This document shows, piece by piece, positions 888-11,274 of a stretch of DNA of 64,000 bases. Numbering within the stretch: the first letter of the stretch is position 1; the number at the start of each line of letters is the position of its first letter. The translations under genes were made by a program, and so were the position numbers. This stretch comes from Bacteroidales bacterium (GTDB lineage Bacteria; Bacteroidota; Bacteroidia; Bacteroidales; UBA932). Under the pieces are notes generated by a model. It was not told the origin of the DNA. It ran no database searches and was given only the letters and a program-made list of their open reading frames with translations. Location: contig DUNA01000064.1 in the NCBI GenBank assembly GCA_012839605.1, positions 1 through 64,000 of the forward strand, read 5' to 3'.

Positions 888-1172
888 ATGATACCACAAA
901 GTAAGCCGTCCTACTTGGCACTCAAAAGAGCTGCAAATGATGATAGGGTTTTTTCATTCGAGAATAAGAAGGGGTTTTTATTTCTGTTTGCTGCTCTGGT
1001 ATTTGCCACACTGTGCGGGATGGTTTTCTTTATCCATTTTCTGACCACGGAGCTGCCTGTGAAGGAGATTTCTGTATTTGAAATGAACAGGAATGTGCGG
1101 GACCTGTTGATTGAATACGGGGAAGTAGATGTTGTTGAGGCAGCTCCTTATTATTATGCATGTGCTGTATGA
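888..1172 (+). CDS. Small single-TM protein encoded upstream of the C39 exporter, function unknown
   Basis: 94 aa with one hydrophobic segment (KKGFLFLFAALVFATLCGMVFFIHFL). Its TGA overlaps the ATG at 1169 (ATGA), implying coupling to the exporter. Confidence 0.65.
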   Translation: MIPQSKPSYLALKRAANDDRVFSFENKKGFLFLFAALVFATLCGMVFFIHFLTTELPVKEISVFEMNRNVRDLLIEYGEVDVVEAAPYYYACAV

Positions 1173-3394
1173 AAGGAGTCCGTATAAAGCAACACCATAT
1201 AAGTGATTGTGGAGCTGCATGCCTTGCGTCTGTTGCTGCCTGGTTTGGACTGCGTTTGCCTCTGGAACAAATCCGACAATGGAGCGGCACTCAGACGCAC
1301 GGCATTTCCATACAAGGCGTTAGAGAAGGAGCAACACATATGCATTTGGAAACACAAGCTTTCGGTCGGGATGCTTCTGCAGAACCTATAGATGAAGCCT
1401 TGTTTCACTCTCTTCCCGTTCCTTGCGTATTGCATGTTTTGAAGAAAAACGGATACAGCCACTTTGTTGTGTTTTATGGCACATCTCCTTTTGTATTCCA
1501 ACCTTTTTTCACGCTGCGTGTGCCTAAAGGAAAAACCAAATTCCGAATCATGGACCCGGAAGACGGGCGTATACATCATAAAACAGCTTTGGAAATTGCC
1601 GAAACTTGGACAGGGGTCATCGTAACTTTCAAACCGGGTGAATCGTTCCAAAAGGGAAATTTCATCCCTAAGTTCACAGACAGAATACGCGTGTTGCTAA
1701 AAGGAAACAAACAGCCATTAGGCATCGCTCTTACCGCATCCTTGCTGTACACGTTTGCCGGTATCGCCTCGGCTTTGTTTCTACAGCAAATTGCAGACAA
1801 AATCATACCGGGCAGCGCAAGAAACTTCTTACACATGATGGGATTTGCTATAGCGTATATAGCTTGTTGCTCTATGGTACTCAACGTTTTCAGGGTAAGA
1901 ATACTGTTGCGAACAGGACTCAAAATGGCAATCCGCTTGGTAAGCGGTTTTTACAGACACATCTTGTACCTGCCTCAACGCTTTTTTGACCAACGCCAAT
2001 CAGGCGAATTGGTGGCTCGTATGAACGACACCTCTAAAGTAAGTACGTTTTTAAGTGCAGGTATCCTCAATATCGTACTTAGTTTTTTCACGCTCTTCTT
2101 TTCCTTAAGTGTCATGTTCCTGTTTAACAAAACGCTGAGTTTGTTGTGTCTGGGAGCCATCCCGTTGTACGCCCTTATATACTATGTCTTTGACAAGCGC
2201 AATATAGTGACACAAAGAAAGATTATGGTATCCAGAGCGCAGTTGGAAACACATCTGGTAGATTCCTTACGCAGCGTTGCTCAAATCAAATACTGTACGG
2301 CACAAGAATATATGATTGACCAAGTACATGATAAATACAGCAATTATGTGGAAGACGCATGGCAAGGCGGGATGAATCAATTGAGAGCCTCTGTCTTGGG
2401 AGACGCTGTGCATAGAAGCATGGGACTTGCCATTTTGTGGTTGGGCGCTTTATGGGTTACTCGCGATGTACTTACTTTTGGCCAATTGCTCACATTTTAT
2501 GCTTTAACCGCTTACTTTTCAGCACCCGTCAACGATGTCATTTCTTTCAGTCAAAAATACAGGGACGCTCGGATTGCCACAGAGCGTTTGTTTGAAATTA
2601 TGGAACTTGCTCCTGAGCAAAACCCCGTTCCCGATGGTTGCTGCCATCAATATTCCGAGCCGCTTGAAGGAAACTTGGTTTTTAAAAACATCTCTTTTCA
2701 TTACCCCGGAAGACTGACACTCTTTCATGATTTTCACTGTACGTTCCCAAAAGGAGAAATTACAGGTATTGCCGGTGAAAGCGGCTCCGGTAAAAGTACG
2801 CTCGGTTCTTTGATCCTGAAGATGTATCTGCCCGATAGCGGTTCCATTTGGCTTGGAAATACAAATACAGACAACATTCCGCTTGACGACTGGCGCAAAG
2901 TGGTGGGAATTGTGCCGCAGAAAGCAGATCTGCTGGAAGGCAGCCTGTTGGACAACATCGTCTTGGGTGATACGACGCCTGATATGGACCGAGTGGCTGC
3001 TTTGTGCGACGAACTGGGATTGAAGCCTTTCCTATCGTCGTTGCCTCGCGGGATTCTCACCCCCATAGGAGAACAAGGAGTGCAGTTGTCCGGCGGTCAA
3101 CGTCAGCGGATTGCTTTGGCCAGAGCCGCATACAGAAAACCTTCCTGGATTGTCCTTGACGAGGCTACTTCTTCCTTGGATAGCACGTCAGAAGAAGCCG
3201 TGTTAAAGGCATTGCGGAAATGGAGCCGACAAGGAATGGGCATCATCATTATTGGACATCGCATGTCTACTTTATCTATTGCCCAATACATTTACGTCCT
3301 GAACGACGGTCGTATTACAGAAAAAGGCAACCATACGGAATTGATACAACAAAACGGTCAGTATGCCGCCTGGTGCAGGCAGCAAGGACTGTAA
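1169..3394 (+). CDS. Peptidase C39 domain-containing ABC transporter (bacteriocin/peptide exporter-processor)
   Basis: N-terminal MKGVRIKQHHISDCGAACLASVAAWFGL (C39 catalytic Cys), YSHFVVFYG...FRIMDPEDG (His/Asp), TM domain, Walker A GESGSGKST, signature LSGGQRQRIALARA, Walker B WIVLDEA. Start at 1169 preferred over 1160. Confidence 0.93.
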   Translation: MKGVRIKQHHISDCGAACLASVAAWFGLRLPLEQIRQWSGTQTHGISIQGVREGATHMHLETQAFGRDASAEPIDEALFHSLPVPCVLHVLKKNGYSHFVVFYGTSPFVFQPFFTLRVPKGKTKFRIMDPEDGRIHHKTALEIAETWTGVIVTFKPGESFQKGNFIPKFTDRIRVLLKGNKQPLGIALTASLLYTFAGIASALFLQQIADKIIPGSARNFLHMMGFAIAYIACCSMVLNVFRVRILLRTGLKMAIRLVSGFYRHILYLPQRFFDQRQSGELVARMNDTSKVSTFLSAGILNIVLSFFTLFFSLSVMFLFNKTLSLLCLGAIPLYALIYYVFDKRNIVTQRKIMVSRAQLETHLVDSLRSVAQIKYCTAQEYMIDQVHDKYSNYVEDAWQGGMNQLRASVLGDAVHRSMGLAILWLGALWVTRDVLTFGQLLTFYALTAYFSAPVNDVISFSQKYRDARIATERLFEIMELAPEQNPVPDGCCHQYSEPLEGNLVFKNISFHYPGRLTLFHDFHCTFPKGEITGIAGESGSGKSTLGSLILKMYLPDSGSIWLGNTNTDNIPLDDWRKVVGIVPQKADLLEGSLLDNIVLGDTTPDMDRVAALCDELGLKPFLSSLPRGILTPIGEQGVQLSGGQRQRIALARAAYRKPSWIVLDEATSSLDSTSEEAVLKALRKWSRQGMGIIIIGHRMSTLSIAQYIYVLNDGRITEKGNHTELIQQNGQYAAWCRQQGL

Positions 3395-3426
3395 AACCAT
3401 ATGCAAAAGCGCGCTTGCAGGCGGAA

Positions 3427-3449
3427 TCTCACGCGCCTAAACTGTGAGA
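3427..3449 (+). promoter_or_regulatory. Small hairpin TCTCAC-N11-GTGAGA followed by ACCATTTTTT, possible attenuator/processing site
   Basis: 6-bp perfect inverted repeat between exporter and first peptide gene, followed within 4 nt by six T. Confidence 0.35.
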
Positions 3450-3472: not shown

Positions 3473-3703
3473 ATGAACGAATACGTGATGAAGGATTTTG
3501 GGTTCACATCCCTGGATTCGGTTGCACAATGCGCCATTACCGGAGGAGGTTCCGATTACGGAATGTTGGGCGATGTTCTGGAAACCATTTTAGATGGATT
3601 GGCTTCCAAGCTGGGGTCTGCGGGACTCCTGTTAAGTATGCTGGCAAGAAATGTTGACAGCTTTATTGATGGATTTATTGCAGGGTGGAACAAAAACAAT
3701 TGA
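3473..3703 (+). CDS. Putative bacteriocin precursor peptide 1 (double-glycine leader)
   Basis: 76 aa from ATG 3473: MNEYVMKDFGFTSLDSVAQCAITGG | GSDYGMLGDVLETILDGLASKLGSAGLLLSMLARNVDSFIDGFIAGWNKNN. GG at the leader end, hydrophobic Gly-rich core with GxxxG (GSDYG, GFIAG), directly downstream of the C39 exporter. Confidence 0.78.
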   Translation: MNEYVMKDFGFTSLDSVAQCAITGGGSDYGMLGDVLETILDGLASKLGSAGLLLSMLARNVDSFIDGFIAGWNKNN

Positions 3704-3912
3704 TGGAAATGAAAACGAAAGAACATGTACAAGGTTTTGTATTGCTGAGTGATAGTGCTTGTTGTGCACTTACTGCAGGCATGGCTTCATCTAATATAGA
3801 TAAAGAACTTGCCTATCAAATTGGTGAAATATTGGGAATGGCTTTCCGTACTCTTTACGACCTGGGAGAAAGCTTAGTTCATAAGTTCAAATTCCTTATA
3901 GACATCTTTTAG
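3703..3912 (+). CDS. Putative bacteriocin precursor peptide 2 (GA/AG-type leader)
   Basis: 69 aa from ATG 3703 (TGATG overlap with peptide 1 stop): MEMKTKEHVQGFVLLSDSACCALTAG | MASSNIDKELAYQIGEILGMAFRTLYDLGESLVHKFKFLIDIF. Leader aligns with peptide 1 (GF-x-x-L...A-x-C-A-x-T-x-G); GxxxG (GEILG). Confidence 0.75.
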   Translation: MEMKTKEHVQGFVLLSDSACCALTAGMASSNIDKELAYQIGEILGMAFRTLYDLGESLVHKFKFLIDIF

Positions 3913-3966: not shown

Positions 3967-4674
3967 ATGCGCAAGTATGCATTTCTTGCTTATCCGTTTT
4001 TCCTGTACCTGATTTTCAGCATATGCACCTTTCCTTTATTGGCTTTTGCACGTTCAAAAGGAGCCGATTTGATGCTGGTCAATGCTTTGGGTTGCCTATG
4101 CATGGGACTTGCTTATGTAAAGAGAAAAAGAAGTAAAATAACGGAGCTTGGCCCTATCCCCTGGACGGGCATCTTCCTTGTTACGGCGTCTCTGATCGTT
4201 CCCGTTGCTGCTCTCTCGTTTCTTCTGATTGGTGACGTTTTCAATGAACTAAAGCACTCGGTTTTTTTGATCAATTGCATGGTGTCGTTTGGTGTTGTTG
4301 CTGTTTGTGAAGAATTGCTTTTCAGGGAATTTTTAACCGTTAGAATGAAATCCATCCATATGCCCGCATGGCTTATTGTATTGCTTCCGGCCTTTTTGTT
4401 TTCCCTATGCCACAGACCTGAATCTGTATCGCTTTTGATTCAGCGCTTTATCCTGGGTGTTGCTCTCTCTTTTCTTTACCGGAAAAAAGGATTGTTGTTG
4501 TGCATTCCCGTACACTGGACATATAATATTATTATTTACACATTTCATACAACGCTCCCCCATGTAACGCTCGTATACGGTGCTCCACATGCAGCTCTGC
4601 ATACGGTTTTGAGTCTCCTTTTAGTTTTGGGAATGGTTATTGTATTTTATTCAAATAGAAGTATATTTGCGTGA
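3967..4674 (+). CDS. CPBP family intramembrane metalloprotease (candidate immunity/processing protein)
   Basis: 235 aa polytopic protein with EELLFR, FSLCH (FxxxH) and HWTYN (HxxxN) motifs of the CPBP/Abi family. Confidence 0.85.
   Translation: MRKYAFLAYPFFLYLIFSICTFPLLAFARSKGADLMLVNALGCLCMGLAYVKRKRSKITELGPIPWTGIFLVTASLIVPVAALSFLLIGDVFNELKHSVFLINCMVSFGVVAVCEELLFREFLTVRMKSIHMPAWLIVLLPAFLFSLCHRPESVSLLIQRFILGVALSFLYRKKGLLLCIPVHWTYNIIIYTFHTTLPHVTLVYGAPHAALHTVLSLLLVLGMVIVFYSNRSIFA
4662..4669 (+). promoter_or_regulatory. Putative -7 element TATATTTG upstream of tolC-like gene
   Basis: Matches TAnnTTTG, 20 nt before ATG 4690; -33 not clear. Confidence 0.35.
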
Positions 4675-4689
4675 TATACTCAGAATATT

Positions 4690-6096
4690 ATGAAAAAATG
4701 TTGCGTTCTCTTTCTGTCATGGCTTCTTTTGTTTCCAGCATTTCTGCAAGCCCAAAACACATGGTCGTTAGAAGAGTGTATCCATTATGCATGGGAAAAC
4801 AACCTGACCATCAAGCAACAAGAACTGGGCGTCCGGCAATCGGAAAACATTCATTTTCAGTCTAAAATGGCTTTTACTCCTTCCCTAAGCGCCAGGGTAA
4901 GTGAAAACATCAACTGGGGACAATCGGTAGACTTATCTACATTAACCATCCTCAACCATGTCAGAAGTAGCAATACCGGTGTAGGAATCTATGCAGACAT
5001 GGACCTGTTTTCCGGACTACAAAGACTCAATACGGTAAAACAAGAAAAATCCAAATGGCATATTGCCGTTGAAGAAGTACAAAAATTAAAAAACGATATT
5101 TCCATAGAAATTACTCGCAGCTATCTGAACGTATTGCTTGCCGGAGAAATTTTACAAGCAGCTATACAAAGCAGGGAAAGCGTTGCTGAACAACGCAACA
5201 GAACTAAAAAATTGGTAGATGCCGGAGGACAACCCCTAAGCGCTTTGCTTGAAATTGAATCCCAATTGGCTACAGAAGAATTGCAAGTAGTTGAAGCACA
5301 AAACAACTTAAGAACGTACTACCTTGTTTTAAAACAGCTTCTTGATATTCCTGCATCATCGGATTTTCAAATTCTGATTCCGCAAGACGAAGATTTTCCT
5401 TCTATGGACCCCGTATCTGTAGAAGAAATGTTTTACACATCTTTGAATTTGCCACAAATCAAAAAGACAGAGTACGGATTGGAACAAAGAAAACACGAAC
5501 TGGCTATTGCCCAAGGCGGTCGCTATCCCAGGATTACACTTTCAGTAGGCTATTCTTCTTTCTATTCAGATGCCAACAAAAGGAGAAAACCGGACCCCGA
5601 TCCTGATGACAACGGAGACGACGACACGAACGGAGGCGGTGGATTGGATGATTTGTTTGGAAATACTTCAGCCGATTTTTGGGAGCAAATGAAGAACAAC
5701 AACAACCCTTCCATCGGCCTGTCCATGACCATCCCTATTTTCAACAGATGGCAAATCAACACAAGTGTAAAAAACGCAAAGCTGGGGGTAGAGATGGCCC
5801 AATTGGAAATGGAAAATGCCAAACAACTGCTCATGAAAGAAGTGCAGCAAGCAGCCAACGACGCCACGTCTACGTACCTTAGAGTAGAGGCAGCAGAAAA
5901 GAACATGTTGGCTATGGAAGAGTCGTTCAGGTACGTACAGCAAAAGTTTGACATAGGTATGCTAAACGGCACAGATTACATAGTATCAAAAACAAATTTG
6001 TTTAAAGCAAAAAGCAACTACATCCAGGCCAAATTTGAACATGTCTTCAAATTAAAAATCCTGGACTTTTATAAAGGAATCCCCATTACATTATAA
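4690..6096 (+). CDS. TolC family outer membrane efflux protein
   Basis: 468 aa, signal peptide, WSLEECIHYAWENNLTIKQ and NNNNPSIGLSMTIPIFNRWQINTSVKNAKLGVEMAQ repeats of the OEP family. Confidence 0.9.
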   Translation: MKKCCVLFLSWLLLFPAFLQAQNTWSLEECIHYAWENNLTIKQQELGVRQSENIHFQSKMAFTPSLSARVSENINWGQSVDLSTLTILNHVRSSNTGVGIYADMDLFSGLQRLNTVKQEKSKWHIAVEEVQKLKNDISIEITRSYLNVLLAGEILQAAIQSRESVAEQRNRTKKLVDAGGQPLSALLEIESQLATEELQVVEAQNNLRTYYLVLKQLLDIPASSDFQILIPQDEDFPSMDPVSVEEMFYTSLNLPQIKKTEYGLEQRKHELAIAQGGRYPRITLSVGYSSFYSDANKRRKPDPDPDDNGDDDTNGGGGLDDLFGNTSADFWEQMKNNNNPSIGLSMTIPIFNRWQINTSVKNAKLGVEMAQLEMENAKQLLMKEVQQAANDATSTYLRVEAAEKNMLAMEESFRYVQQKFDIGMLNGTDYIVSKTNLFKAKSNYIQAKFEHVFKLKILDFYKGIPITL

Positions 6097-6110
6097 CAGC
6101 ATCATACTTC

Positions 6111-7373
6111 ATGAAGAAATCATTACTTTGGATTACAATTGGCGCCACAGTGCTTATAGTTTTACTAATAGTATTGGGCAGAAACAAAGCCGGCAAAGGA
6201 ATAGCTGTGGAAACAGCCCATCCTGTTGTCAGGAATATTACAGAAATCATTCCGGCCAACGGGAAGATTCAGCCGGTTACGGAAGTGAAAATCAGCCCGG
6301 ACGTTTCGGGTGAAATAGTAGCCTTAAATGTAGCTGAAGGTGATTACGTAAAAGCAGGGCAAATATTGCTTCAAATCAAGCAAGACCAATATCGTTCCGC
6401 ACGCGACAGAATGAACGCGGCGCTAAACCAGGCTAAAGCACAACTGGCACAACAAGAAGCACAATTCAACCAAGTAGAGTTGTCTTACAATAGAAATTTG
6501 GCGTTGTACGAACAGCAAGCCATTTCTCAAGCAGAATTTGAATCTTCTTCATCTGAATATTCCATAGCCGGAGAACAGCTTAACGCTGCAAGATTCAATG
6601 TCCAAAGTTCCAAAGCGGCTCTGGCAGAGGCAGAAGAAAGCCTTGCCAAAACAACTATTTTCTCCCCTATGGACGGCATCGTCTCCAAATTGGATGTGGA
6701 AAGAGGAGAACGTGTGGTAGGAACCAGCCAAATGGCAGGTACAGAGATGTTGCGCATAGCAAATTTTGAAGAAATGGAAGTACTGGTGGATGTGAATGAA
6801 AACGATATAGTCAGACTGCGCCAACGCGATACGGCTACCGTAGAAGTAGATGCGTACCCGGGTCGCAAATTTGTAGGGGTTGTGACGCAAATTGCAAACT
6901 CTGCAAAAAACATCGGTTCCGCCTTGGAGCAAGTCACCAATTTTGAAGTACGTGTTTTCATACTGCCTGAATCGTATGCAGATTTGATAACACCGGAATT
7001 TGCAACACCTTTCCGTCCCGGCATGTCAGCATCTGTATCTATACATACAGAAACAAGAAGCAATGTGTTGGCTATCCCCATTCAAAGCATCATCACACGG
7101 CCGGAACTGCTACCGGACAGTATCAGACTACAATTGGGACCGAACGAACTGGCAGAGCAAGTATTTGTCTTGGAAGAAGGCAATACTGTTCGTTCCAAAC
7201 GAGTAACCTCCGGTTTGCAAGACCACTTGTTTATAGAAATCAAAGAAGGACTAACTAAAGACGACAAAGTAGTTGTAGGACCTTATTCCGCCCTTTCACG
7301 TACGTTGGAAAACGGTACTAAAGTGACCCCCAATATAGAGGAGGAAGTTAGTGAAACCCATCCTGTTAATTGA
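6111..7373 (+). CDS. HlyD/MacA-type periplasmic adaptor (membrane fusion protein)
   Basis: 420 aa, N-terminal TM, lipoyl/barrel-sandwich motifs (KISPDVSGEIVALNVAEGDYVKAGQILLQI...TIFSPMDGIVSKLDVERGERV). Confidence 0.88.
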   Translation: MKKSLLWITIGATVLIVLLIVLGRNKAGKGIAVETAHPVVRNITEIIPANGKIQPVTEVKISPDVSGEIVALNVAEGDYVKAGQILLQIKQDQYRSARDRMNAALNQAKAQLAQQEAQFNQVELSYNRNLALYEQQAISQAEFESSSSEYSIAGEQLNAARFNVQSSKAALAEAEESLAKTTIFSPMDGIVSKLDVERGERVVGTSQMAGTEMLRIANFEEMEVLVDVNENDIVRLRQRDTATVEVDAYPGRKFVGVVTQIANSAKNIGSALEQVTNFEVRVFILPESYADLITPEFATPFRPGMSASVSIHTETRSNVLAIPIQSIITRPELLPDSIRLQLGPNELAEQVFVLEEGNTVRSKRVTSGLQDHLFIEIKEGLTKDDKVVVGPYSALSRTLENGTKVTPNIEEEVSETHPVN

Positions 7374-8058
7374 AACTGCTGCGGATCTGTGTTCCGTATC
7401 GCTAGCCAAAGGAACAGAGATTATTGCCAATCGCACTACGTCAGAACCTAGAGCACATGCATCTGTTTTGGCTCCTTTTATTGATCAACTATTAAAAGAA
7501 TGCCAATTGGAGATGGAGGATTGTGCTGCCGTAGCCGTAAGCGGTGGCCCCGGTTCTTACACGGGGTTGAGAGTAGGTGTTTCCACAGCCAAAGGACTTT
7601 GTTTTGGAGCCGGTATTCCTCTGATTCACGTGTGCTCCCTGGAATTGATTGCTCAATTGTATATAGACAAACACATGCAGCAGACACCCAGAGCCATCTG
7701 CCCTATGATAGATGCACGAAGGAGAGAGGTTTACACAGCTCTTTTTGCTGTAACGGAAAGCGAATATGGGAAAATGGCTTCTTCCATAAAGCCGGCACAT
7801 GCTGAGGTGATTAAGGACGACAGTTTTGCCGATATCTTGGCACAAGGTCCTGTCGTTTTTACCGGAGACGGAGCCCGGAAATGCAAAGAATGGATTTCAC
7901 ATGAAAACGCACTGTTTTTCCCTATGGAAGCACATGCAGACGGCATGGCCAAAGCTGCCTTCAAAGCATACGTCCATAAAAATTTTGAGGATGTTGCTTA
8001 TTACGTACCTTACTACTTAAAAGAATATCAAGTCACACAACCTAAAAAAGGCGTTTGA
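7351..8058 (+). CDS. tsaB: tRNA threonylcarbamoyladenosine biosynthesis protein TsaB
   Basis: GTG start at 7351 preceded by AGGAGG; LLIETAADLCSVSLA, VSGGPGSYTGLRVGVSTAKGLCFG typical of TsaB. Confidence 0.92.
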   Translation: MKPILLIETAADLCSVSLAKGTEIIANRTTSEPRAHASVLAPFIDQLLKECQLEMEDCAAVAVSGGPGSYTGLRVGVSTAKGLCFGAGIPLIHVCSLELIAQLYIDKHMQQTPRAICPMIDARRREVYTALFAVTESEYGKMASSIKPAHAEVIKDDSFADILAQGPVVFTGDGARKCKEWISHENALFFPMEAHADGMAKAAFKAYVHKNFEDVAYYVPYYLKEYQVTQPKKGV

Positions 8059-9187
8059 TCTCTGCAATAGCCTCGTCTACGTGACTAACCCTGGATACGA
8101 TATCTCCCTGTTTGTTGATGATAAAAAACGTTGGAATTTCTACTACATTGTAAGAAGTTACTGATGAAGAGTAAATTCCCATACCATCGCAGACGCTAAT
8201 CCATGGTATGTCTTGATCTTTTACAGAAGACGCCCAAACGGCTTTGTCGTTATCCAAGGCTACTTGAAATATTTCCAATCCTTTTTGAGCATATTGAGCA
8301 TACAAATCCAACAATTCTCTGTTATCAAGTCTCATACGAACATTTGTGGAATGCCAGAAAGACAAAAGTATGCTTTTCCCTTTCCATTCAGACAGGCAAA
8401 CCATGCGGCCGTTTCTATCCGGAAGACAAATATCAGGAAAGTCCGACACCTCTGCCTGCAACAAAGCGTGTTCCATTTTCAAAGCTTTTTCCATACTTTC
8501 ATAACGATCCCTAATGGCCATCGTATGAGGCGAAAAAGGATGCGACGTATACAACGAATCGTATACCATCTTCAAAAGCATAGCGTCTTTTGGATCTGAA
8601 AAAACATACAGTTGACCCGGAAAAGAGTGAAAAATCACAGACGTATTTACAAAGGCTCCCGGATATTGATACAGAAAGCGAATGGCTTGCTGTTTGTATT
8701 TGATAAAAATGCTTCCCAACTCCAAACTCATTCTATCTCTCTCTTTCCCGGAAGCTTTTTCATAAGCAGGATAAATTGAATCGAATTTTTTGACCGCTTT
8801 GTAAAAGGTCGTGTTGATTTGCTGCAACAAGGCCGATTCTTCAGAACCGTCCAAGAGACTTACTCTTCCGTCTTTTGTCGTATGAACCGTCACCACGTCT
8901 CCTTTCTGGAGAATCAGAGCAGCCACCTGCCTGTTGCCTAGATAGATATAATAATACCCCGGTTGCTCTATGCCTTTTTTTAAGATGTATTTAAAGCGGC
9001 CTTCCTCATCTGTACGCAGGGTGTCTATAAGCGTCTCTGTACTAAATTCCAGTCTCTTGAGCAGCAACACATCTTCTGCGTCTACATGTTCAACTATACC
9101 GGAAATGTGTACTTGGTCATCTGCCTTGCACGAAAAGAGCAAACCGGCACTTAGTGCCACTGCCATAATTATTACATAGGGTCTCAT
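8042..9187 (-). CDS. TlpA/AhpC-TSA-like lipoprotein with N-terminal DUF4369-like domain, redox motif absent
   Basis: Lipobox LLFSC; thioredoxin-fold C-terminus ICLPDRNGRMVCLSEWKGKSILLSFWHSTNVRMR...VEIPTFFIINKQGDIV. STNV occupies the CxxC position. Confidence 0.75.
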   Translation of the reverse strand: MRPYVIIMAVALSAGLLFSCKADDQVHISGIVEHVDAEDVLLLKRLEFSTETLIDTLRTDEEGRFKYILKKGIEQPGYYYIYLGNRQVAALILQKGDVVTVHTTKDGRVSLLDGSEESALLQQINTTFYKAVKKFDSIYPAYEKASGKERDRMSLELGSIFIKYKQQAIRFLYQYPGAFVNTSVIFHSFPGQLYVFSDPKDAMLLKMVYDSLYTSHPFSPHTMAIRDRYESMEKALKMEHALLQAEVSDFPDICLPDRNGRMVCLSEWKGKSILLSFWHSTNVRMRLDNRELLDLYAQYAQKGLEIFQVALDNDKAVWASSVKDQDIPWISVCDGMGIYSSSVTSYNVVEIPTFFIINKQGDIVSRVSHVDEAIAEIKRLF

Positions 9188-9194
9188 AACGGAA

Positions 9195-9590
9195 TTATTC
9201 GAATTTGTCAGATATCATTTGTGCCAGCTGCTGCATTTGCTCTGCAGACATTTTGTAAACGGGACGAGAGAAGTTCATATCTCCTTCTGCTTCTATAGGA
9301 ATCAAGTGAATATGGGCATGAGGCACCTCCAGCCCCAACACGGCTACTCCTACTCTGTTACAGGGAACTACCTGTTTTATAGCTTTGGCAACACGCTGTG
9401 CAAAACGAAACAAGTCACCAAGATTGCCCTCATCCAAATCAAACAAGTAATCTACTTCTTGTTTTGGAATGACAAGTGTATGGCCGCGTTTCCTGGGGTT
9501 GATATCTAAAAAAGCATAAAAACGATCGTCTTCTGCAATTTTATATGAAGGGATTTCCCCGGCCGCAATACGTGAAAATACAGTCGCCAT
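9195..9590 (-). CDS. HIT family hydrolase
   Basis: 131 aa with HAHIHLIP histidine triad. Confidence 0.92.
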   Translation of the reverse strand: MATVFSRIAAGEIPSYKIAEDDRFYAFLDINPRKRGHTLVIPKQEVDYLFDLDEGNLGDLFRFAQRVAKAIKQVVPCNRVGVAVLGLEVPHAHIHLIPIEAEGDMNFSRPVYKMSAEQMQQLAQMISDKFE

Positions 9591-9592
9591 AA

Positions 9593-10066
9593 TTAAAACG
9601 TTATATCTAAAACTTCAAAGGCTACCATACCGGATGGAGTTTCCACCTCGGCTATTTCCCCTTTCTTCTTACCTAATAGTCCTTTTCCTATTGGGGAGGA
9701 AACGGCCAATTTCTTTTCTTCTAAATTGGCTTCGCTTTCCGCAACCAATGTCACTTCCATAAGGGACTTATTGGCTACGTTCCTAATCTTGACTGTATTC
9801 AAGATTTGGACTATTTCTGTGTTCAATTTGGATTCGTCTATAACACGAGCATTGACAATAGTATTTTGCAATTGAGCAATTTTCATTTCAAGCATACCTT
9901 GTGCATCTTTCGCCGCATCGTATTCTGCGTTTTCAGACAAATCACCCTTATCCCTGGCTTCTGCAATAGCCCGGGCGGCTGCTTCCCTTTCTACGGATGT
10001 CAACCGATGTAACTCTTTCTTCAATCTCTCCAGCCCTTCTGCTGTGAGATAATGAGGTTTAGTCAT
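9593..10066 (-). CDS. greA: Transcription elongation factor GreA
   Basis: 157 aa; YLTAEGLERLKKELHRLTSVEREAAARAIAEARDKGDLSENAEYDAAKDAQG. Confidence 0.95.
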   Translation of the reverse strand: MTKPHYLTAEGLERLKKELHRLTSVEREAAARAIAEARDKGDLSENAEYDAAKDAQGMLEMKIAQLQNTIVNARVIDESKLNTEIVQILNTVKIRNVANKSLMEVTLVAESEANLEEKKLAVSSPIGKGLLGKKKGEIAEVETPSGMVAFEVLDITF

Positions 10067-10084
10067 ACTCTTGTATACTTTTAA

Positions 10085-10399
10085 TTAGAATTTTTGTTTG
10101 AGGATCTCTGAAAACAACACTGCTTTTTTGGCGTCAAATCCCATTTCTTTTAATTTCTTCGAACTTTTCTTTGACGGTATATCCTGTACAGACTGTACTT
10201 CAATAGGTTCAGGTTCAGGTTCACGCGTGGGTTCTGATACCGGCTCTTGAAAAACATCCTCTTCTTCTATGCTTTCCGGATCAAAAAATATTTGCCGAGG
10301 CTTTGCCATCGCCTGTTTCTTCTTCTTTCTGGCGTTGATAATTCCTAAGGAAATAGCTAATATACTTAGCAATAGGGTCACCAATGAATCTGATTTCAT
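10085..10399 (-). CDS. Conserved hypothetical membrane-anchored protein
   Basis: 104 aa with N-terminal TM and C-terminal FDAKKAVLFSEILKQKF. Confidence 0.6.
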   Translation of the reverse strand: MKSDSLVTLLLSILAISLGIINARKKKKQAMAKPRQIFFDPESIEEEDVFQEPVSEPTREPEPEPIEVQSVQDIPSKKSSKKLKEMGFDAKKAVLFSEILKQKF

Positions 10400-11274
10400 T
10401 GCAAAGCCTCTTTATCTTTTAGTAATTGTTCTTTTAGAGCTTCCAAGGAGGGGAAGGCCACTTCTTGTCTGTGGTACTTCAACATCCTAACCCGGATATC
10501 CAGCCCGTATATGTTGTCTTCAAAATCAAAGATATGTGTTTCTATTGTTTGTTCCAAATGTGCAGCCACTGTAGGACGTACTCCTATGTTCATCATTCCC
10601 GGATACCATTTGCCGTTCAGACGGGCTTCTACTTTGTACACCCCGTTGGCCGGAATTTGTTTTAAGGGTTCGTACAATTGCATGTTGGCCGTTGGAAATC
10701 CCAATGTTCTTCCAATGCGATTTCCCTCCACCACAACGCCGTGCAAACAATAGGGATACCCCAACCAACGGTTGGCCGTTTCTATGGACCCTTGAGCCAA
10801 AGCCGCCCGTATTTTCGTAGAACTAATATGTTCTCCCTGTTCAGTTTTGTATTCCGGGACCCATATGATTTCTATTCCACAAGTGCGGGCTTCCTCTTGC
10901 ATATACTCCCGATTTTTCACTCCATCACAGCCCAAACGATGATCAAAACCGGCAACCAACACGTTGACTCCGTATTCTTTTACCAAATATTCTTTACAAA
11001 ATTCTTTAAATGAAAGAGTAGAAAAATCCTTGGAAAACGAAATGATCTTAAAGGCATCGACACCTAGTCTGTGGATCATTTCTTTCTTCTCATCCAAAGA
11101 CGTCAACATACGAAATGTATGGGCATCTTGCTGCAATACAGCTCTTGGATGCGGCCAAAAAGACAGCACCACACTTTGTGCTCCAAGGCTTTTCGCCTTT
11201 TCTGTCAACGTGTCTAGTACAGCCTTGTGTCCCAGGTGTACTCCATCAAAAAAACCTGTAGCTGCTACAACCAT
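10396..11274 (-). CDS. ribF: Bifunctional riboflavin kinase/FAD synthetase
   Basis: GFFDGVHLGHKAVL, AGFDHRLGCDG, GRTLGFPTANM, MNIGVRPT motifs. Confidence 0.92.
   Translation of the reverse strand: MVVAATGFFDGVHLGHKAVLDTLTEKAKSLGAQSVVLSFWPHPRAVLQQDAHTFRMLTSLDEKKEMIHRLGVDAFKIISFSKDFSTLSFKEFCKEYLVKEYGVNVLVAGFDHRLGCDGVKNREYMQEEARTCGIEIIWVPEYKTEQGEHISSTKIRAALAQGSIETANRWLGYPYCLHGVVVEGNRIGRTLGFPTANMQLYEPLKQIPANGVYKVEARLNGKWYPGMMNIGVRPTVAAHLEQTIETHIFDFEDNIYGLDIRVRMLKYHRQEVAFPSLEALKEQLLKDKEALQ

Follow-up and report, generated by a model that had tools for sequence, protein, structure and literature searches.

Introduction

Two-peptide bacteriocins have been described mostly from Gram-positive bacteria, and bacteriocins in general are mostly accessory and mobile. 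Those of class IIb, including plantaricins EF, JK, and S and lactococcin G, each comprise two unlike peptides that are encoded next to each other, carry double-glycine leaders, and are exported by C39-ABC transporters. Both partners contain a GxxxG or GxxxG-like motif and form amphipathic helices, and the peptides are usually cationic. Further criteria of the class are a neighboring membrane immunity protein, synergy of the partners at approximately 1:1, and permeabilization of membranes. A Gram-negative two-peptide system is represented by CdzC/CdzD of Caulobacter, a contact-dependent glycine-zipper bacteriocin composed of two small proteins with GxxxG motifs, type I secretion, and a membrane immunity protein (PMC5380434). 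Its extended GxxxGxxxG zippers are built from small hydrophobic residues, and its distribution is patchy and often horizontal. Within the Bacteroidales, the bacteroidetocins (class IIf) are also provided with a GG leader and a C39-ABC exporter, but each is a single peptide with at least two cysteines that is accompanied by a five-TM protein and usually by a thiol oxidoreductase (PMC6671954). Finally, colicin V/microcin V is a GG-leader peptide that leaves the cell through a C39-ABC transporter, an adaptor, and TolC; it is a single, plasmid-borne peptide (PMC10352776). In the open-licence literature, the only bacteriocins found for the Bacteroidales were single-peptide bacteroidetocins, RiPP candidates, and large proteins, and no description of a two-peptide bacteriocin from this order was encountered.

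The locus described here lies in the window, namely the entire 64,000-nucleotide stretch of Bacteroidales DNA that was analyzed. We assign a probability of roughly 0.6 to its being a class IIb-like two-peptide bacteriocin of a Bacteroidales family, secreted by a type I system, for which no killing activity has been shown. It resembles class IIb loci in its two adjacent peptides, their leaders, their export, and their motifs and, in the window's genus, in the presence of a nearby CPBP protein. Unlike them, it is found in a Gram-negative background with TolC and HlyD, occupies a fixed core locus, encodes peptides of anionic to mixed charge without a sequence match at threshold, and is preceded by a novel RNA leader. 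It differs from the Cdz system in that each peptide has a single conserved GxxxG motif in what is predicted to be a charged amphipathic helix and in that its site is a fixed, core one. In contrast to the bacteroidetocin loci, it encodes two mature peptides devoid of cysteine and neither of the typical partner genes, its neighbors being CPBP, TolC, and HlyD; its sequences are also different from those of colicin V.

Precursor genes and leaders

The precursor of peptide 1 (76 amino acid residues) is encoded at positions 3473..3703 of the forward strand, on which all of the features of the window given here are located. Its leader, MNEYVMKDFGFTSLDSVAQCAITGG, extends from 3473 to 3547 and ends in ITGG, and its mature part, GSDYG...SFIDGFIAGWNKNN, from 3548 to 3700. 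The precursor of peptide 2 (69 residues) follows at 3703..3912, with the leader MEMKTKEHVQGFVLLSDSACCALTAG at 3703-3780, which ends in LTAG, and the mature part MASS...AYQIGEILGMAFRTLYDLGESLVHKFKFLIDIF at 3781-3909. The stop codon of the first gene overlaps the start codon of the second in the sequence TGATG (3701..3705). Both reading frames and the overlap are found where an earlier note on this DNA had placed them. That note had also proposed coupled synthesis of the two peptides. The overlap is indeed common in the window's genus, occurs in relatives as well, and was observed in all 19 of the g4 loci read. In several genera, however, the ORFs are separated by 5-19 nt, and tight coupling is therefore not essential to the pair.

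As had likewise been claimed, the leaders share a pattern, with GFTSLDSVAQCAITGG and GFVLLSDSACCALTAG being identical at 8 of 16 positions. When genus-family profiles of the two peptides were compared, only the leader region could be aligned (23 columns, E 2e-7); with wider-family profiles, 51 columns aligned (E 1.1e-8), and the agreement in residues was again mainly in the leader. Judged from these alignments, the leaders truly resemble one another, and this can probably be ascribed to common recognition by the C39 peptidase, that is to say a generic code. The peptide-2 leaders of 94 loci conform to L/I(-12), E(-8), V/I(-4), G(-2), and G(-1), and this pattern is close to the published C39 recognition code of Leu(-12), Glu(-8), Leu(-7), and Val(-4) (PMC6363468). 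Note that in the peptide 2 of the window AG takes the place of the GG observed in most relatives. A recent duplication was considered as the source of the leader similarity and was set aside as unnecessary, given that the C39 code accounts for it.

The pN/pS values for the complete ORFs are 0.28 for peptide 1 and 0.38 for peptide 2. For peptide 1, the value is 0.23 in the mature part versus 0.42 in the leader, and for peptide 2 the corresponding values are 0.35 and 0.43. All are rough, the synonymous sites being near saturation. On the basis of these ratios, both peptides are products of real genes under purifying selection, which constrains the leader less than the mature part. Given that they are short and hydrophobic, the ORFs could be thought to have arisen by chance or to specify small membrane proteins that are not secreted. 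Chance ORFs are excluded because purifying selection acts on both. Additionally, the conservation of the ORFs in 101 loci with pN/pS values well below 1, their C39 leader code, and the C39 exporter adjoining them already refute this explanation, to which we attach next to no weight.

Export machinery

The apparent operon is ordered as follows: a small TM ORF (888-1172), the C39-ABC exporter, peptide 1, peptide 2, a CPBP protease, TolC, and an HlyD-type adaptor, with tsaB coming next. The exporter is a C39 peptidase-ABC transporter (PCAT) encoded at 1169..3394, with a possible alternative ATG start at 1160, and it matches PF03412 (2e-19), PF00664, and PF00005. The Cys, His, and Asp active-site motifs of the C39 peptidase are present as DCGAACL, GYSHFVV, and IMDPEDG. 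The matches to TIGR01193 (1e-117) and TIGR03796 (5e-123) both fall below the curated cut-offs. A TolC-family outer-membrane channel is encoded at 4690..6096 (PF02321, 2e-47) and a HlyD/RND-type periplasmic adaptor at 6111..7373 (TIGR01730, 5.5e-52, above cut-off). Genes for C39-ABC, TolC, and HlyD also adjoin the pair in the 12 additional genomes drawn from 8 other genera, and the end of the exporter was visible in 58 of the 60 short loci. From the gene content and the leader code, it can be inferred that both precursors would be recognized by the adjacent exporter and cleaved after GG or AG, with the mature peptides leaving the cell via HlyD and TolC.

Distribution of the pair

Each peptide is present in all 13 genomes of the window's genus, always next to the other and in constant order; those members of the genus with names are Bacteroidales MAGs such as 'Rikenellaceae bacterium DTU002'. 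The profile for peptide 2 reached g3, a sister genus within the family; there the partner emerged when the stretch between peptide 2 and the exporter was read. A walk along the fixed neighborhood revealed two GG precursors, placed between the exporter gene and tolC, in a further 12 genomes from 8 additional genera. With a broad peptide-1 profile, 112 of 200 family genomes, representing 12 of the 26 genera, were matched at E <= 1e-4. From these matches 60 loci not used before were taken, and a second GG precursor was located directly downstream in every one (60/60), the downstream ORF having been chosen independently of the GxxxG motif. Both ORFs are thus found in 101 of 101 loci (13 + 16 + 12 + 60), and these loci represent 12 genera within a single Bacteroidales family. 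The earlier note had named homologues retaining just one of the ORFs as a finding that would refute the two-component proposal, and none was found in the 101 loci. A pair carried by approximately half of the sampled family genomes would add a new competition (or communication) factor to Bacteroidales communities.

Outside of the family, the narrow peptide profiles led to nothing credible, and the weak matches to the broad profile all look like chance with the exception of two. In L246, from another Bacteroidales family (f8), two adjacent GG precursors are followed by HlyD and C39-ABC (7222-11111, reverse strand of the fetched stretch). The first of these precursors carries FFDGLADGW, and the cassette is positioned at an unrelated site. 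In L247, from a further family, a lone GG precursor with a REGLSDGY (GLSDGY) motif is encoded at 6799-6990 (reverse strand of the fetched stretch); neither an exporter nor a partner was found adjoining it.

GxxxG motifs in the mature peptides

Three GxxxG motifs had been claimed for the mature peptides, and two of these are conserved. GFIAG of peptide 1 (residues 67-71, positions 3671..3685) is invariant in 34 of 34 sequences, and GEILG of peptide 2 (residues 41-45, positions 3823..3837) is retained as GxxxG in 32 of 34 and as [GAS]xxxG in all 34. The third candidate, GSDYG, was rejected, its first glycine being replaced by D or E in relatives. The constant positions among the 34 sequences of peptide 1 are M1, the GG, and Gly 67 and Gly 71 of the pattern F-x-x-G-F-x-x-G-[WYF]. 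In peptide 2, they are the last glycine of the leader and Gly 45, with Gly 41 nearly always kept. In the 60 further loci, G[FYLI]xxG is kept in 59 of the first peptides; GxxxG is found in 51 of the second peptides, and both [GA]xxxG and [GAS]xxxG describe all 60. The AxxxG of the peptide-2 exceptions is a GxxxG-like variant that is accepted for class IIb peptides (PMC6382864; PMC8538875). Both peptides contain GxxxG in 50 of the 60 loci as compared to the 5% expected from shuffled peptide pairs. Related loci are not independent, and the motif counts overstate the number of events, yet the motif holds in every genus. Nothing else in the mature peptides, which have otherwise diverged strongly, is conserved as well as these two GxxxG motifs. 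With approximately 100 natural variants that keep almost only the GxxxG pair, the packing model could readily be tested.

The most amphipathic 18-mer of each window peptide holds the motif, and the fractions of shuffles scoring as high are 0.004 and 0.026. In the AF2 models, helices cover the motifs at residues 61-74 of peptide 1 and 34-68 of peptide 2, albeit with low confidence (mean pLDDT 49 and 64). Motif conservation combined with amphipathic stretches is what a helix-helix pair predicts, although both are read from sequence alone. The two mature peptides would accordingly be envisaged as amphipathic helices packing together, with one GxxxG contributed by each. The packed pair would most likely permeabilize the membrane of related competitors, a step that is inferred and has not been shown. 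The two-component toxin put forward in the earlier note is supported by the constant pairing, the conserved GxxxG motifs, and the C39/TolC/adaptor operon; the word "toxin" itself remains an inference.

The mature peptides of the window contain no cysteine, and their lengths are ∼50 residues (peptide 1) and ∼43 residues (peptide 2). Their net charges are -3 and -2, and they are thus anionic rather than cationic; elsewhere the charge is mixed, with genus means ranging from -5 to +5.5. The lack of positive charge in the window would also suit a contact-dependent toxin that is kept on the surface of the producer and does not diffuse, in the manner of CdzC/CdzD. The Cdz system, from a Gram-negative bacterium, exports two peptides by a type I route, has GxxxG motifs, and includes a small membrane protein for immunity (PMC5380434). 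The window peptides do not, however, meet the Cdz criterion of an extended GxxxGxxxG zipper uninterrupted by charge: the zipper is absent, and charged residues, which the Cdz search definition excludes, lie within the predicted helices. Cdz systems, moreover, are often horizontally acquired. A surface-bound toxin of this type is possible but considered unlikely.

Returning to the class IIb-like bacteriocin, the locus fulfills the criteria of two different, adjacent peptides, of double-glycine leaders with a dedicated C39-ABC transporter, and of GxxxG or GxxxG-like motifs in both partners. It does not display the typical cationic charge, which is not strictly defining, nor a match to a known family, which would be sufficient but is not required. 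Searches of Pfam, NCBIfam, and the PDB yielded no family for either peptide and only chance-level matches. Known bacteriocin families gave no significant match; the best, lactococcin G-beta (NF038034), was to 3 of the 34 peptide-1 relatives (alignment A3) with a best E of 0.019, which is chance level for 34 scans. The bacteroidetocin criteria, namely cysteines in the mature peptide, a five-TM protein, and a thiol oxidoreductase, are not met. The system is thus class IIb-like by pairing, motif, and export, yet it is not filed as a class IIb member because its activity is undemonstrated, the window peptides lack positive charge, and there is no sequence match. The possibility that it represents an undescribed two-part toxin (or signal) can be tested directly.

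Genomic site

In g1, the genus of the window, and in most of g3, the neighborhood is stable, with ileS and cvpA upstream and tolC, hlyD, and tsaB downstream; beyond tsaB, the genes tlpA, HIT, greA, and ribF lie on the opposite strand. The locus is a fixed, core chromosomal site between cvpA and tolC-hlyD-tsaB, and its inheritance is apparently vertical. No plasmid copies of the peptides were found. A strong match to the peptide-1 profile is missing in 14 of the 26 sampled genera of the family, and in six of these 14 tolC-hlyD was seen with no exporter or peptides. In some cassette-free genera, cvpA directly precedes tolC (G441, G410, and G411). Additionally, all 20 of the other families of the order for which the region was read have tolC-hlyD-tsaB with no exporter (in one or two, a tolC or tsaB could not be detected). 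The exporter and peptides therefore reflect either one early insertion in the family, followed by losses in some genera, or repeated gain at one site.

As a separate observation, the tolC-hlyD-tsaB order (4690-8058 in the window) is kept in the sampled families of the order even in the absence of the exporter.

Near-fixed presence at a single site is unusual for a bacteriocin, and it provides the main argument for other readings of the locus. A core, apparently vertically inherited locus would be expected of a signal rather than of a weapon. In such a case the exported pair would be sensed by kin, with the helix-packing motif giving rise to an active heterodimer recognized by a receptor; pheromones are also exported by C39 exporters (PMC6363468). 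Neither a sensor kinase nor a regulator is present in the conserved neighborhood, however, and the mature parts, at 28-51 residues and with long predicted amphipathic helices, exceed the size that would be expected of a pheromone. To our knowledge, there is no precedent for a two-peptide pheromone with GxxxG, and a two-part signal, although possible, seems unlikely. The fixed core position beside cvpA, tolC, hlyD, and tsaB, together with the strong purifying selection on the mature parts, could point to a housekeeping pair, such as an envelope or adhesion component, which is secreted by toxin-like export and is not aimed at other cells. The mature sequences nevertheless diverge strongly between genera except for the packing motif, and the cassette is dispensable because of the 14 genera without a strong match, six of them with tolC-hlyD only. 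This housekeeping role is too improbable to carry much weight. A further proposal, possible but doubtful, is that of a two-peptide, Gram-negative helix-pair system in the core genome of the family, with peptide synthesis under the control of a dedicated pseudoknot RNA, that serves kin recognition or population control rather than being an ordinary mobile bacteriocin.

Candidate immunity proteins

For the two-peptide bacteriocin that we favor, self-protection would be conferred by a membrane protein of the operon, inferred to be the product of the ORF at 888..1172, the CPBP protein encoded at 3967..4674, or both. The former is a small single-TM ORF, situated just upstream of the exporter gene and overlapping its start, that may specify an immunity or accessory protein. 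It is present in those genomes of the genus whose contig covers the site (mean identity 47%), has no family match in Pfam or NCBIfam, and, with a pN/pS of 0.59, is the fastest-evolving gene of the locus. Short single-TM ORFs of ∼50 residues occupy the equivalent place in g3, g211, g224, g221, and g217. The second candidate is a CPBP (Abi/Rce1-like) membrane protease (PF02517, 1.4e-14) in which the motifs EELLFR (EExxxR), FxxxH, and HxxxN are present. CPBP proteins are known to function as bacteriocin immunity proteins, including those for the class IIb plantaricins EF and JK (SkkI, PlnI, and PlnL; PMC8538875). The CPBP gene is at the site in 13 of 13 genomes of g1 and is absent from it in the other genera read. 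No immunity gene common to all of the genera read was found. The small TM ORF is the better general candidate because it evolves fastest and has counterparts in several genera, whereas CPBP is at the site only in the window's genus; immunity has been shown for neither.

RNA element upstream of peptide 1

Preceding the peptide-1 gene is an H-type RNA pseudoknot at 3419..3449. Stem S1 pairs 3419-3423 with 3434-3438, stem S2 pairs 3427-3433 with 3443-3449, and the element ends 23 nt before the ATG. Immediately before it lies a palindromic hairpin, P0 (3403..3418), the arms of which vary; a palindrome is located at the equivalent place in most loci. S1 is AGGCG/CGCCT in the window and GGTG/CACC, AGGT/ACCT, or GGGGC/GCCCC elsewhere, and S2, of ∼7 bp, is represented by many different sequences. 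Of 93 loci, 68 contain the pseudoknot, which stops 14-27 nt short of the ATG; among dinucleotide-shuffled copies, the figure was 1 of 930. The element runs into the 3' end of the exporter gene in some genera. In an alignment made from sequence only, in which stem S2 loses its register from one genus to another, both stems pair in 80% of cells; after sliding, the value is 29-50%. Between 2 and 6 pair types occur per position. The predicted structure is thus shown to be supported by covariation across genera. The sole Rfam hit, WT1-AS_2 (E 0.91), is a chance one, and the RNA is undescribed as far as Rfam shows. Throughout 1.6 million bases of these loci, on both strands, every pseudoknot match that precedes a GG-leader ORF is at peptide 1, and the remaining matches, in coding DNA, look like chance. 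It can be inferred, though it has not been shown, that the RNA influences how the peptide genes are translated or how stable their mRNA is. Lying before the ribosome site of peptide 1, the pseudoknotted RNA would probably set the peptide output from the polycistronic message. In one g211 genome, the region between the exporter and peptide 1 also contains a tandem array of the short unit ATTATGAGATT (L127, ∼6394-6560).
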